Of a stretch of DNA of 64,000 nt, positions 14,022 through 39,789 are shown in pieces. The notes under the pieces were generated by a model. The model made no database searches, was not told the origin of the DNA, and worked only from the letters and a program-made list of their open reading frames with translations. Source of the stretch: Yarrowia lipolytica (lineage: Eukaryota > Ascomycota > Dipodascomycetes > Dipodascales); assembly GCF_001761485.1 (NCBI RefSeq), contig NC_090775.1:2115001-2179000 (forward strand), read 5' to 3'. A program made the position numbers and the translations under genes. Every line of letters starts with the position of its first letter. Within the stretch, counting starts at the first letter, position 1.

Positions 14022-14784
14022 GTAACCTCCTGTCCTGTGCTCTGCATCATGGGTCGTGTGTTGATTGCTAGAGAGAAGCTGCTTCCACCCATTAAATTAT
14101 TAATCATTGTATTTTTTGCATTTTGTTGTCTGTTTTGTGAAATGGTTAGTCAGAGTCTCGCCGGGTAGCATTGTATTGTTCTGTCTTGCAATGTAGAGCT
14201 ACAAGCCGTGGGATTGCAGTAAACCAGATCTGTAGACAAGAGGGTAGCAAGACTCATACAAGTAGAACTGCCGGGGCACACAATACATTTTCGGATTGTG
14301 TCAGCTCTTCTTTTTGACTTACTGTCCGTCTGATTACACCATATTCGGGTTGACAATGTCAACTCGTTGCAAGGATGTGTTCTGACAGACATGACAAAAA
14401 GGCATACAAAACCAAATGAGGAGCTTGGTTAAGAGCACAAGCTAGATTGATCTAAAAGATTTCATTCTTTTTCTTTTTTTAATCCCCCTCCTTTCAGATC
14501 TCTTGAAGATGCCATATCTGTTTTCCCCAATTGGACATGTCAATAGAATCCATGCATGGAAGGTCAAAAATTTCCTGAACGGGAACGGACAATGAATCAC
14601 AGAGATGATTCTAGACAAGACCAGTATCGAAGCAATTTGGTAATCACCCAAGTTCATTGACGGATCTGTTTTGAAACGTGAATGTGACAAAGCCTCCCTG
14701 TTGCCTTATGTCTATAAGTAACAGTACAATCCCTCCCGTGAAGTCCATCAAACAGAAAGAACCACTACTACAACAACTAACACA
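14022..14784. other. Intergenic region upstream of the first CVIA mini-gene
   Basis: Contains the PRP18 3' end and the probable promoter of the small gene at 14785. GAATGTGA at 14680-14687 also occurs upstream of the second mini-gene. A TGAAACG just before it resembles the Ste12 pheromone response element TGAAACA; this is inference only. Confidence 0.5.
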
Positions 14785-14898
14785 ATGAGCAAGGCTATCC
14801 CTCGAGCATATGGCACCGACTCCTACCGAGTCAACTCCAACGTTACAATTGTTGGCGGATACCGAACCTTCCAACCCTCCTCTTGTGTGATTGCCTAA
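14785..14898 (+). CDS. Probable a-type mating pheromone precursor, copy 1 (37 residues, CVIA CaaX)
   Basis: A 37-codon gene that opens MSKAIPRAYG and ends GGYRTFQPSSCVIA. The last four residues are a CaaX box identical to that of Saccharomyces a-factor. Precursor length (37) is also like Mfa1/Mfa2 (36 and 38). By analogy Cys34 would be farnesylated, VIA removed and the Cys carboxyl-methylated. The N-terminal cut is unknown; a cut after Asn19 would leave a 15-residue peptide. A CA-rich leader precedes the ATG, as in other genes here. A second gene at 19462 encodes the same peptide with 14 different synonymous codons. That is strong evidence for selection on the protein. Export would be expected through a Ste6-type ABC transporter, not visible in this window. 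Confidence 0.82.
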   Translation: MSKAIPRAYGTDSYRVNSNVTIVGGYRTFQPSSCVIA

Positions 14899-15178
14899 CC
14901 GAGAGTCGAGTTTCAAATCGCACACATGTTGGACATATCGATAATTGATTGGACATATCAAAAAATGACTACCTATGTAGGCTAGTAGACCATGACGTAG
15001 TTGGGCCCGCGATAACATACAGAGACATGCTCTTGAATCTTGGTTCTATTACACATACCTAAGAATACATGAGTTGTACTGTGCAAGACAATGCCTACAA
15101 AGCCCACCCCGACGATAATCAATAAAACAAATGCATTACTCTATCACCTCCTTCCCATCATTGTTCCCCATTGGCCGT

Positions 15179-16531
15179 CTACTTTCGGTTCTTCTTATTA
15201 CTGTTAACGTATCGTCCTCGACCAACCTTGACACCAGTATGTCTGGTAGCTTCTCGAGCAGAACCAGTGGCAGCAAAGGGAGACATGACATTCTCGGCAG
15301 AGCCTCCTCCGATCCAATGATCGAGAATCTTCTCGTTCTGTCGACGCTTCCATTCGTCGCTCTTGATGGCCTTGGCGTACTCCTTCTGGTCCTCTCTCAG
15401 CAACACATCGTTGAACTCGGGCTGTCGCTGGTGTCGACTGTTCTTTGACTGGGGCTTGGGCAGAGTGTACTTGTTGCCTCGGGTCGACCAGTTCATCTTC
15501 TTCTTGAGATGCACCTGGATCTTGCCGTCGTTTCCAACCGTGACGGAACATCGCATCAGCGTGTTTCCTCCACACTTGGGGCAAAAGTGCTTGACGCTAC
15601 CGTCCTTGGGATAGGGCAGAAGATGGAAACATCCATGGCATCGCAGCATGGAGTTTCGGATTCGCTGAATCTGTCGGCCATTGGTAGCGTTCACAAGAAC
15701 CATGCCCATCTTGAGAATGACGTTCTGCATGGCAAAATCACCCGTAGAGGTGGCAGCCAGAATATGTTCAGGTTCGACATCGTCGTCAACAACCTGTCCG
15801 GCATCCTTGATAAGCGACTCCTGCAAGTTCTCGGGAGTGATCCACTCTCCTCCATCACTGTCGTCCTCACTGTCGTACTCAAAGGGAATAGCGGGCTTGT
15901 CCTCCTTGGCAGGCTGGGTGAGACCGGCGTTACCCCAGAAAGTGCTACCTCCAACTTTCTTGCCCTGTTTTCGGGGAGCTCTAGACTTTTTCGTCACAGT
16001 CTCCCATCCATCATCTTCCTCTTCCTTCCCAGGCTCCTCCTGCTCGGGCTCCTGCTCGGGCTCCTGCTCCTGTTCCTGCTCCTGTTCCTTATCCTCCTCA
16101 GACTCGACAGGCTCGGTATCCTCAGCTTGTGTAACCTCCTGGGGCTGCTGCTTCACAGCCTTGAGATGTTCAACCCCACCGTGGAGCTCAACGTCAATCT
16201 CGTATCCCAGAGCAATCAGAGCAATATCGGTGGAAGACAAAACTCCGTAGTCACCGGTCGATCTGGCGACATCGGAAACAGCCTTGACGGAACCGGCCTT
16301 GGGCTGTCGAATGACCAGTCGATCGCCCCATAGCAGCAGGTTGGCTCGAGAATTGTCGTCCTTCAGCTCGGTGATAACTGAGGGAGTGGTGTAGAAATGG
16401 TCGGCCATGTTGTGGAGAGTCTGGAAGGATTGGGTGATAAGAGGTCCCGCATCGAGAACCAACGAGTTAATCTGCTTCTCACCGGAGGCTGTAGATGCCG
16501 GCGTCACGGGTTTCACTTCTTCAGCAGACAT
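15179..16531 (-). CDS. NOB1: 20S pre-rRNA D-site endonuclease Nob1
   Basis: Nob1 makes the final cut that forms the 3' end of 18S rRNA in cytoplasmic pre-40S particles. The 450-residue product starts with a PIN nuclease domain, with first metal-binding Asp27 in SLVLDAGPLI and a later acidic site in SSTDIALIALG. A highly acidic linker (repeated Glu-Gln and Glu-Pro) follows. The zinc ribbon is at about 293-318 (CHGCF, then CPKCGG). A basic C-terminus ends GVKVGRGRYVNSNKKNRK, typical of Nob1. The ATG at 16531 gives a normal N-terminus. The gene is divergent from SGT1. Confidence 0.95.
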   Translation of the reverse strand: MSAEEVKPVTPASTASGEKQINSLVLDAGPLITQSFQTLHNMADHFYTTPSVITELKDDNSRANLLLWGDRLVIRQPKAGSVKAVSDVARSTGDYGVLSSTDIALIALGYEIDVELHGGVEHLKAVKQQPQEVTQAEDTEPVESEEDKEQEQEQEQEPEQEPEQEEPGKEEEDDGWETVTKKSRAPRKQGKKVGGSTFWGNAGLTQPAKEDKPAIPFEYDSEDDSDGGEWITPENLQESLIKDAGQVVDDDVEPEHILAATSTGDFAMQNVILKMGMVLVNATNGRQIQRIRNSMLRCHGCFHLLPYPKDGSVKHFCPKCGGNTLMRCSVTVGNDGKIQVHLKKKMNWSTRGNKYTLPKPQSKNSRHQRQPEFNDVLLREDQKEYAKAIKSDEWKRRQNEKILDHWIGGGSAENVMSPFAATGSAREATRHTGVKVGRGRYVNSNKKNRK

Positions 16532-17373
16532 TTTGTATCAATAAGGGATTCCAAAATGGTTTCGGTGTTGTGTCTGTTCAGGCAACAATTTTTTTTGGAA
16601 GAATCATGTATCTCCATGCATCGAGAGCTTAATTTGGGACTAACAGTGCGCTTAGTAAGCCAATATGAGTAGGACTCGTAGTGACTGTTGGTCCAGCCTT
16701 CTTTGGCGTGGAAGAGGTCCAAGTGATGGAAAAGGGAATTATTATGCTCTCAGTTCTCAGATTCTCCTTTTTAGAAACCCCTAATCTGTATTTGATATCA
16801 TAAAAACTGTCATCTCTGAGGAAGACGACTGGCGGAAGAATGATAAGGTTCCCACACACCTCCATAGTCAACACCATCAGGCCTGATATCTGTAATGGAA
16901 GCTCGTTTATTTGATTTTGATTCTGTAAAGCTGGTGTTGAATCTGACTAAAGTAGCCGCAAATAATACCCTGAAAAAATCTAACGCGATTAGACCAATCC
17001 TGGGCTAGTTCTGGCGATCATATTGTATGAAATCCATCTGCAGGTTCGAGTTTCGTGCAGGTTCGAGTTTCGTGCAGGTTCGAGTTTCGTGCAGGTTCAA
17101 GTCTCGACTGTGATGTTGAATTAGACAGGCGTGATCAGTCTCAACTCATTGTGAAAAGAATGGCGATTTGCACGGCAGTACTTGAACTTTTGGTACTTTG
17201 AATTGCCACTAAAAAGTTTTCGACGCGGTTACTAGGGAGTGCCTTGACCACTCCTCTACTTCCCAATCAACCCAACAAACTTTTGCCTCACATATTGCAT
17301 GCAACACAGTACTGTAACTAACAACTCACAACCATCTTCAGTTATCATAGCTACCACACACGTACACTCCAAC
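16532..17373. other. Divergent intergenic region between NOB1 and SGT1
   Basis: Promoter region for both genes. The only distinctive element is a 17-bp tandem repeat at 17041. Confidence 0.6.
17041..17107. repeat. 17-bp tandem repeat, almost four copies
   Basis: Three perfect copies (17041, 17058, 17075) of a unit starting CAGGTTCGAG, plus a diverged fourth. Each unit contains GGTTCGAG, which looks like a Pol III B box, but there is no tRNA fold around it. It lies about 270 bp upstream of the SGT1 start. Confidence 0.9.
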
Positions 17374-18933
17374 ATGGCTGATAGCGCGCAGAAGGCGTTC
17401 GATGAAAAACGATATGTCGACTCGGTCAAATTGTTCAACGTGTTCATGAAGGATCATCCCAAACGGACCACCCCCGACCACTTCCTACTCCGATCTACTG
17501 CTCTCCTTCGACTGGGCAAAAAAGAGGCTGCTCTGAGAGACGCAGACCGAGCAACTCGTCTAGCATACGCTCAGAAGAGCAATGAGGCGCTTGGAAAGGC
17601 GCAGATGAGACGAGCAGTCACCTATGTGTCTCTCGGAGACAATGCTGCTGCCAAAAAATGTGTGGACTTTGCAGAGACTGCCAACCCCGAAGAGCGCACT
17701 ATCCCTGTATGGAAGGCCAAGATTGGCATGAGCAGCGGTTCCAACGAGGCGTCCGACGTGCCCCAGATTCCCGACATTGACATCTCCTACGTTTGGAAGG
17801 GACCCACAGACGTACCCGTGAAACATGAGGTCAAGCCTGAGGTCAAGAAGACCGAGGCCACTGCTACGACCAACGACACCAACAATGAGACTCAGACACC
17901 AAAGCCTTCTGTCAAGCCTGCTGCCACTCAAGAGACTCCCTTCAAGGTCCCTACTTCTGAGTTCAAGTTTGAGCCCAAACCAGATGTCAAGTCTGATCCT
18001 ATGCCTGCTCCTATGGATGATTCTAAATCCACCGCGTCTTCTCGGTCCGATGAAGCCAACACCTCTTCAATTTCATTTAATGGCCCCAAGGAAGACCTCC
18101 GCACAGACTTCTTCCAATCCAACGAAAAAATCACAGTGTCGATTTACAGAAAAAACACACCAAAGGATGCAAAGTGCGACATCCAGCCTACATCCATTTC
18201 GATCATCTGCTCAATGTACAGTTGGAGCACCCAGTTGTATGCCCCCATTGTGCCCTCTGAGTCCTCCGTGCAGATTTACGGAACCAAAGTTGATTTCACT
18301 TTGATGAAGAAGACACCCGCAAAATGGCCCACCGTCAGTGGAAACGCATCTCTCAATGATGATTCGGAAACCCCTATAAAGTCTCCTAGCAGCACCACAA
18401 AATCTGGACCTTCTCAGATCACTAACATCGACTTCTTCCAAACCCCTACACATATCAACGCCTATCTCTACATGCCCAATCTTGTCGAGTACGAGCCTGC
18501 AGTGATTGGCACACCCTCAAGCTTTACGGTCACATTTACTAACAACAACGATCCCAAAAATTCGTTTGTAAAGACTGTCTTTCTGCATGGGCTCATCGAG
18601 CCTGAGCTGCTGCAGTTCAAGGTGTACCCCACGAAGCTAGAGGTCCAGATGCGAAAGAAGACGTCTGGAAATTGGCCTTCTTTGGAAAAGGGGGTTTCCA
18701 ACACCTCTTCTTCGGCCATTGCTCCTCCCACAACAAAAGATTGGTCCAAGATTCAGATTGAAGACGACTCAGATGACGATCTGAACTCTGAAAACCCAGA
18801 CGACTTTTTCAAGGCTCTTTATGCTGATGCAGACGACGACACGCGACGTGCTATGATGAAAAGTTTCGTTGAGTCTGGAGGCACGTCGCTGAGTACGGAT
18901 TGGGACAAGGTGGAGAAGGGAGAGCATAGCTAG
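17374..18933 (+). CDS. SGT1: Sgt1-type Hsp90 co-chaperone with two CS domains
   Basis: Sgt1 links Hsp90 to Skp1 and is needed for kinetochore assembly and SCF ligases. The 519-residue product has an N-terminal TPR region (about 1-125) and a Pro/Lys/Thr-rich linker. A first CS domain follows at about 240-325 (LRTDFFQSNEKITVSIY, then TKVDFTLMKKTPAKWP). A second CS-like domain is at about 347-436 (ITNIDFFQTPTHINAYLY, then TKLEVQMRKKTSGNWP). The SGS region closes the protein (about 450-519: PDDFFKALYADADDDTRRAMMKSFVESGGTSLS, quoted from separate parts). Budding yeast and animal Sgt1 have one CS domain, so the duplication is unusual. The ATG at 17374 gives MADSAQKAFDEKRY, a normal TPR start. Confidence 0.9.
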   Translation: MADSAQKAFDEKRYVDSVKLFNVFMKDHPKRTTPDHFLLRSTALLRLGKKEAALRDADRATRLAYAQKSNEALGKAQMRRAVTYVSLGDNAAAKKCVDFAETANPEERTIPVWKAKIGMSSGSNEASDVPQIPDIDISYVWKGPTDVPVKHEVKPEVKKTEATATTNDTNNETQTPKPSVKPAATQETPFKVPTSEFKFEPKPDVKSDPMPAPMDDSKSTASSRSDEANTSSISFNGPKEDLRTDFFQSNEKITVSIYRKNTPKDAKCDIQPTSISIICSMYSWSTQLYAPIVPSESSVQIYGTKVDFTLMKKTPAKWPTVSGNASLNDDSETPIKSPSSTTKSGPSQITNIDFFQTPTHINAYLYMPNLVEYEPAVIGTPSSFTVTFTNNNDPKNSFVKTVFLHGLIEPELLQFKVYPTKLEVQMRKKTSGNWPSLEKGVSNTSSSAIAPPTTKDWSKIQIEDDSDDDLNSENPDDFFKALYADADDDTRRAMMKSFVESGGTSLSTDWDKVEKGEHS

Positions 18934-19461
18934 ACTATGATGTAGATAGTGACAAACGTGTCTTTCAAATGATACTGTCTTTCAAACAAGGAGCTCTGCG
19001 TAGTCTTGTATAGATGTGCTTAGGTAGCCATTTGTGGTACAGTACATGCCGTACACTCGAACGATACGATACTGTATATTGGTGTGTAACCGAAAAGGAT
19101 CATTCAAAGCAGCCATTCTGAAGCAATGGCCGTTAAAACAGCTGACATCTAAGCTCCACCTTGCGCCACCTTGCGCCTTTCTATTGAACCTCCCTACTTG
19201 GGTTGCCGGATCTGGACAAGTCAATAGAGCTCCACGCACCCTGCAAGCACGGAAGTATTCAAACAAGAGAATGTGATTGATACTGGAGTTGATACAGTGG
19301 ATGCTGGTGTTAATAGCCGAGATCCCCGCAGTGAGCAGCCGTTATTAGGTCGAGGCCCGCTCAACAGAGGATTATATATAGGTTCTTGCGACCCATCCTA
19401 AAAGTACCAAACAACCACCTCTCTCCCTACAACCACCGTCACCATCATTACCACTATCAAC
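18934..19461. other. Intergenic region upstream of the second CVIA mini-gene
   Basis: Holds the SGT1 3' region and the probable promoter of the small gene at 19462. GAATGTGA occurs at 19269-19276, as it does upstream of copy 1. TATATATA-like sequence lies at about 19373-19381. Confidence 0.5.
19373..19381 (+). promoter_or_regulatory. Probable TATA box of pheromone-like gene copy 2
   Basis: A TATATATAG-like run about 85 bp before the ATG at 19462, with a CA/CT-rich leader between them. Confidence 0.5.
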
Positions 19462-19575
19462 ATGAGCAAAGCTATCCCTCGAGCATACGGCACCGACTCT
19501 TACCGAGTCAACTCCAACGTGACCATCGTTGGAGGCTACCGAACCTTTCAACCTTCGTCCTGTGTTATTGCTTAG
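19462..19575 (+). CDS. Probable a-type mating pheromone precursor, copy 2 (37 residues, CVIA CaaX)
   Basis: Encodes exactly the same 37-residue peptide as the gene at 14785 and ends in the same Cys-Val-Ile-Ala CaaX box. Fourteen sense codons and the stop codon (TAG against TAA) differ, all silently, while the flanking DNA does not align. The duplication is therefore old and the peptide has been held constant. Both copies are on the plus strand 4.7 kb apart, separated by NOB1 and SGT1. Two precursor genes for one pheromone is also the arrangement in Saccharomyces (MFA1, MFA2). Mating-type-specific expression is expected but not shown by the sequence. Confidence 0.82.
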   Translation: MSKAIPRAYGTDSYRVNSNVTIVGGYRTFQPSSCVIA

Positions 19576-39031: not shown

Positions 39032-39789
39032 TTCTGTCGAGTGTAGTCAGAGTGAAAAATAAAAAAGCTAATCTGAAAGTTTGATAGTGGTGGTGATGCG
39101 AAGGCGGGGGTCTACAATGTCTACAATAGTTGCATTTGACGCGGCTTTCTATAAAAAGAAGTGCAAACAGCTCTGTCTCTTTAAGTGCTCAACAATCGAG
39201 TCCATTTGTATTTTCAGCTAGTGCGTTTTTTTTTGCATTTCTGAGAGGTATTATTCTTACTAATCGAAGGTGGAAATCCAAACTGACTTTCTTATAATTT
39301 AGTTGATAATTAGTTAAGAAATTAAAAACTCTAATATGCACACTACAATGCCCTCGAAGAGTCTACAGACTGTATATTCTCCATCTTTATGGTCAGCCAA
39401 GTAACTAGTACACTACTTGGACATTTCTCATCTCATCATTACACCCTTGTCTGTCAAATTACGGGAGAGCATTTGTAATGATGCATGCATTTAGGTTCAG
39501 AGAGCGCAGTGCGGGGTGTTCAGAGATGGGTCCTAAAAGTGCGCTTTTAATCGACAATTTAGGAGATTTGGCCATTAATATTACTCAGCGGACCTTTCTG
39601 TATCATGTGACATCCATATTTCACCTCTGCAATGCTTACTAAGTCAACTAATTACTCTCCTTGTCCCCTCCGATATTTGCCCCCCGATAACCTACTTGTT
39701 CGGTTGGGACTACAACCTAAACCACCTTGAAACATCACCACTGCAAATTACTTTTTCCGCATCAAAAACTACACACACCCACACACACA
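39032..39789. other. Divergent intergenic region between TRM7 and BOL3
   Basis: Promoters of both genes. AT-rich, with a (CA)n leader directly before the ATG at 39790. Nothing else is recognised. Confidence 0.55.

Follow-up and report, generated by a model that had tools for sequence, protein, structure and literature searches.

Two short genes for one CaaX peptide

We examined a 64,000-nucleotide stretch of the Yarrowia lipolytica genome (NCBI RefSeq assembly GCF_001761485.1, contig NC_090775.1, positions 2,115,001 to 2,179,000 of the forward strand), hereafter the window. It contains two short open reading frames (ORFs), copies 1 and 2 (Table 1), that share the translation MSKAIPRAYGTDSYRVNSNVTIVGGYRTFQPSSCVIA, which ends in the CaaX box CVIA. 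A preliminary description made from the letters alone had put them forward as candidate a-type mating pheromone genes. Comparison of the two sequences bears out its statement that one 37-residue peptide is encoded twice: 14 of the 37 codons differ, all synonymously and with no replacement, and the stop codons differ as well (TAA and TAG). The Nei-Gojobori method (NG86), the only one used for the divergence figures given here, yields a nonsynonymous divergence (dN) of 0 and a synonymous divergence (dS) of 0.79. Were replacement sites unconstrained, the probability that all 14 changes would be synonymous is about 6e-9 (25.8% of sites being synonymous). The nearest in-frame stops lie 22 (copy 1) and 21 (copy 2) codons upstream, and no further in-frame ATG intervenes. 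CaaX-type ends, defined as C, two of A/V/I/L/M/C/F/G and then any residue, were found in 3 of the 514 ATG-initiated ORFs of 20-100 aa in the window, namely copies 1 and 2 and one other. The latter, at 39096 (+), encodes 41 aa ending in CIFS and is probably a chance occurrence.

Using the peptide as query, we searched the whole genome (20.5 Mb in six contigs) and obtained matches in five places, comprising four intact copies and one decayed copy. The number of genes previously assumed, two as for MFA1/MFA2, is thus too low. A 37-aa precursor ending in CVIA is encoded at all four intact loci, in one case with the coding sequence interrupted by a 50-nt intron; the exons around this stretch in copy 4 give the same peptide with D at residue 8. 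Each of the six pairs of intact copies differs by 7 to 18 synonymous codon changes, while replacements are absent from two pairs and limited to one (A8D) in the other four, leaving residue 8 (A or D) as the sole variable residue. Over the six pairs dS ranges from 0.33 to 1.46 and dN from 0 to 0.018. The set therefore has a feature of a-factor families, several near-identical genes under strong purifying selection. The intron-bearing copy 4 is the most diverged of the four (dS 1.12-1.46 to the other three), a pattern that would be accounted for by one loss of the intron before the other three copies separated, or by a gain in copy 4.

Table 1. Features of the pheromone gene family, its promoters and the adhesin-like genes. 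Positions without prefix are those of the window.
Feature	Position	Strand	Remarks
Predicted a-factor precursor gene, copy 1	14785..14898	+	37 aa, RAYG form, stop TAA
Predicted a-factor precursor gene, copy 2	19462..19575	+	peptide as copy 1, 14 synonymous differences, stop TAG
Copy 3	C5:1046998-1047108		uninterrupted; residue 8 is D in place of A
Copy 4	C6:1323605-1323706		split by a 50-nt intron-like stretch (GTGAGT...TACTAACACAG)
Decayed fifth copy	C6:754429-754503 (L005)	-	frame and several residues lost
CaaX box CVIA of copy 1	14884..14895	+	from sequence; predicted farnesylation at Cys34, by likeness to the a-factor family
CaaX box CVIA of copy 2	19561..19572	+	from sequence; predicted prenylation
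Predicted mature peptide of copy 1, VTIVGGYRTFQPSSC	14842..14886	+	putative cut after Asn19, by analogy with the processing known for S. cerevisiae a-factor
Candidate composite operator CCCCAATTGGACATGTCAATAGA, copy 1	14525..14547	+	far edge 260 bp upstream of ATG
Candidate composite operator CCGGATCTGGACAAGTCAATAGA, copy 2	19206..19228	+	far edge 256 bp upstream of ATG
Leader with CATCAAACA block, common to copies 1, 3 and 4	14744..14784 (copy 1)	+	score reached in 0 and 1 of 500 shuffles
Adhesin-like gene, C1	ATG C1:1581343 (L013:3149-3844)	-	candidate operator inverted, far edge 769 bp and near edge 747 bp from ATG
Adhesin-like gene, C3	ATG C3:692957 (L046:2158-3060)	+	candidate operator in the orientation of the ORF, far edge 479 bp

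A composite element in the pheromone gene promoters

The flanks of copies 1 and 2 had been described as not aligning. This is correct for the 300 bp downstream, for which the alignment score was reached in 113 of 500 dinucleotide shuffles, and too strong for the 400 bp upstream, where a 25-bp block aligns at nearly equal distance (1 of 500 shuffles). Upstream of the intact copies, the alignment score is matched in no more than 1 of 500 shuffles for five of the six pairs and in 28 for the pair of copies 2 and 4. The best-aligned block coincides with the element described below for copies 1 and 2 only; it is the leader for copies 1-3, 1-4 and 3-4, and another block for copies 2-3. Downstream, copies 3 and 4 align (2 of 500 shuffles) and copies 1 and 3 weakly (19 of 500), with no alignment over these 300 bp in the other four of the six pairs (113 to 397 of 500).

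Inspection of the copy 1-3 promoters by eye yielded a first pattern, GGACANGTCAATARA. It matches the genome exactly at five places (Markov expectation 0.39), and a reversed-pattern control gives no exact match. Allowing one mismatch gives 18 sites and likewise 18 in the control, so single-mismatch matches mean little alone. The 13 sites with one mismatch include the copy 4 promoter and C5:717784, upstream of STE6; for the remaining 11, ORFs of at least 200 aa around each were listed and three were compared with Pfam, and these sites were not used. The exact site at C1:1361565, which starts 12 bp beyond the stop codon of a Metallophos ORF and has no CC, was taken as chance. A CC six bases ahead of GG is present in 7 of the 18 sites (the four pheromone promoters, STE6, C1:1582098 and C4:725531).

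The resulting composite pattern, CC-N6-GG-A-N3-GTCAATARA, occurs in the promoters of all four intact pheromone genes. Genome-wide it has seven exact sites against 0.316 expected, a Markov estimate from window composition with no separate control for exact composite matches. Besides the four pheromone promoters these are STE6, C1:1582090 and C3:692478. With up to one mismatch there are 19 sites, and 8 in the control. Because CC-N6-GG was added to the pattern after copy 4 and STE6 had been seen, only the C1 and C3 sites, both on the upstream side of adhesin-like genes, had no part in defining the motif; the C1 site already matched the first pattern. The best match at the decayed fifth copy has four mismatches. 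A separate operator-like sequence with one mismatch and the CC lies at C4:725523-725545 (+), in L027 (C4:725531 in the first pattern), with no clear gene adjoining.

The CC-N6-GG motif is the core of the MADS-box (Mcm1) site, and we take the TCAATAG of the element to resemble the sites of HMG mating-type proteins. In Candida albicans, a-specific genes carry a Mcm1-a2 operator, a MADS-box-like CC-N6-GG beside an HMG-type ATTG core. The Yarrowia element has the same arrangement of a MADS-box core adjoining an HMG-type site, a likeness at the level of the sequence pattern. We read it as a putative Mcm1-a2 type operator (Mcm1 site plus HMG site) of an a-specific regulon.

To score other promoters, we derived a matrix from nothing but the four pheromone sites and compared it with overlapping 600-bp pieces drawn at random from the window (3000 pieces, 2900 after removal of 100 that overlapped the two promoters and genes). 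None of the 2900 reached the score of the STE6 promoter. The STE3 promoter has no convincing element, 80% of the random pieces scoring as well.

The exporter STE6 and other mating genes

An ABCB transporter ORF of 1279 aa follows the C5:717784 site at a distance of 101 bp, and the far edge of the composite site is at -109. Section 10 of PMC7243462 names 15 wild-type residues of YlSte6. The 1279-aa ORF has all 15 of them, which identifies it as STE6, whereas the in-register counts for three other full-length ABCB ORFs are 1, 2 and 2, and shifting the register by up to 60 residues raises none above 4. The fit of STE6 also points, by itself, to Y. lipolytica as the species. Among the best 60 of 585 PDB matches to YlSte6, animal ABCB pumps come on top, and one match carries the name of an a-factor exporter (7qkr). 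According to PMC7243462, MATA strains deleted for ste6 mate very poorly, and YlSte6 exports the farnesylated pheromone of Y. lipolytica from MATA cells. A 98-codon piece at C1:1154054-1154347 (-), 74% identical to YlSte6 residues 5-102 within an open frame of 108 aa, is apparently a partial STE6 copy.

The genome also has one STE3, one STE2, an ICMT (STE14-type) and a Peptidase_M48_N (STE24-type) gene, a statement of presence only; the search for processing genes covered ICMT and M48_N.

Two adhesin-like genes beside the remaining sites

The ORFs near the C1 and C3 sites (Table 1) are paralogs, with 47% identity over 132 aa, and their products are presumably secreted. Both proteins have a hydrophobic start and a Cys-rich head, the latter recognized by eye, followed by Ser/Thr/Pro-rich repeats, and in this assembly both genes break frame within the Ser/Thr-rich repeats. 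In one of them a hydrophobic tail resembling a glycosylphosphatidylinositol anchor signal was seen by eye in another frame. Searching the genome with the C3 head returned, apart from the query (1.4e-57), the C1 gene (3.2e-22) and an ORF with three weak matches (E 0.01-0.06), such that the C1 and C3 genes are the only two strong members of the family found. The weakly matching ORF, C3:2545503-2546477 (L049), contains repeated Cys motifs, and its 3-kb piece has no operator (best match with four mismatches). Pfam gave no match for either protein, and a protein database search with the adhesin head returned one protein only, an identical one. The structure predicted for the head was poor (mean predicted local distance difference test score, pLDDT, 42.5) and was not used.

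The pair resembles the sexual agglutinins Aga1/Aga2 and Sag1 of S. cerevisiae, as described in PMC7730094, in its hydrophobic start, Cys-rich head and Ser/Thr-rich repeats. It differs from them in the absence of a Pfam match, in having an identical protein as its sole database match and in its frame breaks. In the published passages retrieved on Yarrowia, agglutinin and mating, no Y. lipolytica agglutinin is named. We propose that the C1 and C3 genes may encode a-type sexual agglutinins of Yarrowia.

A proposed a-specific operator and its alternatives

Judging from the sequence patterns, we consider it somewhat more probable than not that the element is an a-specific operator, that its seven sites make up a regulon of four a-factor genes, STE6 and the adhesin pair, and that the pair represents unrecognised a-type agglutinins. 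No published description of the operator or of the adhesin link was found in a search that did not include the 2023 Srikant paper.

Two other accounts of the sites have to be weighed. The C1 site may serve another gene, the link between the two adhesin-like genes being a coincidence. It is inverted and lies far from the adhesin-like ATG even at its near edge, and downstream of it, in its own orientation, there is a 104-aa ORF without Pfam match (L013:4881-5195), all of which fits this account. However, the one further strong member of this two-gene family also has a site upstream of it, that on C3, and given a site at one of the two genes, the chance of another falling within 800 bp upstream of the sole strong paralog is about 4e-5 (800 of 20.5 million, a post hoc figure). 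We regard coincidence as possible but rather unlikely. Alternatively, the element could be a remnant inherited through duplication with no regulatory role. Copies 1, 2 and 3 do carry it at near-equal distance, with far edges 260, 256 and 248 bp from the ATG, as duplicates would, but in copy 4 it is inverted with its far edge at 170 bp, and it is also found at STE6 and upstream of two adhesin-like genes unrelated to the pheromone genes. A duplication remnant is accordingly an improbable explanation.

Mating type and neighbouring genes

The stretch between an APN2-like ORF and SLA2 (L042) contains a homeodomain ORF and two ORFs (291 and 119 aa) without Pfam match. We take the 291-aa ORF, at L042:1448-2323 (-), to sit in the place expected for the HMG protein, by position and signature only. 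Its predicted structure was poor (mean pLDDT 52.6) and was not used. A MATalpha1 box was not found in the genome, although the same search was silent in control genomes too. Because of this result and the content of the MAT locus, we infer that the genome is MATA, the equivalent of MATa in Y. lipolytica according to PMC7243462.

Around the two window genes, Pfam supports the naming of NOB1 (PIN_6, NOB1 Zn-ribbon) and SGT1 (CS, SGS) in the preliminary description; other neighbours named by Pfam are Prp18 and LETM1-like. Upstream of SGT1, at 17039-17106, there are four near-perfect tandem copies of a 17-bp unit (TGCAGGTTCGAGTTTCG).

The probable a-factor genes of Y. lipolytica

Copies 1 and 2 are almost certainly two of four a-factor precursor genes of Y. 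lipolytica. The earlier proposal of a-type pheromone genes is upheld by the CaaX end, the four-gene family, the element held in common with STE6 and the validated pheromone of PMC7243462, which, with reference to a 2019 thesis, reports that a farnesylated pheromone of this species has been found and validated by experiment. Since that report exists, the pheromone itself is already known in substance and is not a new discovery. The a-factor it describes comes from the same species, is farnesylated and is exported from MATA cells by YlSte6; the intron, the relic and the promoter element come from the present analysis. An abstract by Srikant from 2023 reportedly states that deleting all four related genes in a-type Y. 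lipolytica prevents mating, in agreement with the number of intact genes in the present genome. A literature search for the peptide itself gave no match.

Several points weigh against this interpretation. That the mini-gene peptide and the published Y. lipolytica a-factor are the same is itself something we infer, and no homologue came up when the protein database was searched with a 57-aa query. A clear operator is lacking in the STE2 promoter, as 23% of the random window pieces score as well, in which Yarrowia departs from the C. albicans system; a degenerate GGCGATGTCAATGGG is present in this promoter (L015), and STE2 would be expected to be a-specific.

If the genes act as proposed, MATA cells would transcribe them through the operator, whose Mcm1 site and adjoining site for an HMG protein (MATA2) would turn them on. 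The cysteine of CVIA would receive the farnesyl group, trimming (Ste24/Rce1) and methylation (Ste14) would follow, and a protease would cut the precursor near its N-terminus, probably after Asn19. The mature pheromone would then leave the cell through Ste6 and be perceived by MATB cells through Ste3. In S. cerevisiae, the a-factor genes MFA1 and MFA2 encode short precursors with a CVIA end, present in more than one gene and cut after Asn. The Yarrowia set is alike in its short precursor, CVIA end, several genes and probable cut after Asn, and unlike in having four genes rather than two, one of them with an intron. PMC7243462 describes the Y. lipolytica a-factor as lacking any sequence similarity to that of S. 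cerevisiae. In Blastobotrys adeninivorans, MFa and MFalpha candidates have been reported (PMC4022394).

The product of these genes could instead be a prenylated peptide that acts outside mating, for instance as a small membrane-anchored regulator. Pheromones are not the only peptides with a CaaX end, and one of the three CaaX-ending mini-ORFs in the window is unrelated. Yet the element is common to these genes and STE6, with only two other loci among its seven exact genome sites, and a farnesylated pheromone is reported as validated in this species (PMC7243462), which makes a non-mating role very improbable. Chance or decayed ORFs without function, to which the short length and the existence of a decayed fifth copy might point, are refuted by the synonymous-only substitution pattern between copies 1 and 2, with the promoter element also kept at all four intact copies, and their probability is negligible.

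The pheromone genes of Y. lipolytica are now placed, four in number and one of them split by an intron, and what is added to the known pheromone is the promoter element. The Yarrowia lineage is far from Saccharomyces and Candida. If the element is an a-specific operator, the Mcm1 plus HMG logic for a-specific genes would extend outside these two groups, and the C1 and C3 genes would be two named candidates for the mating adhesins of a biotechnology yeast.

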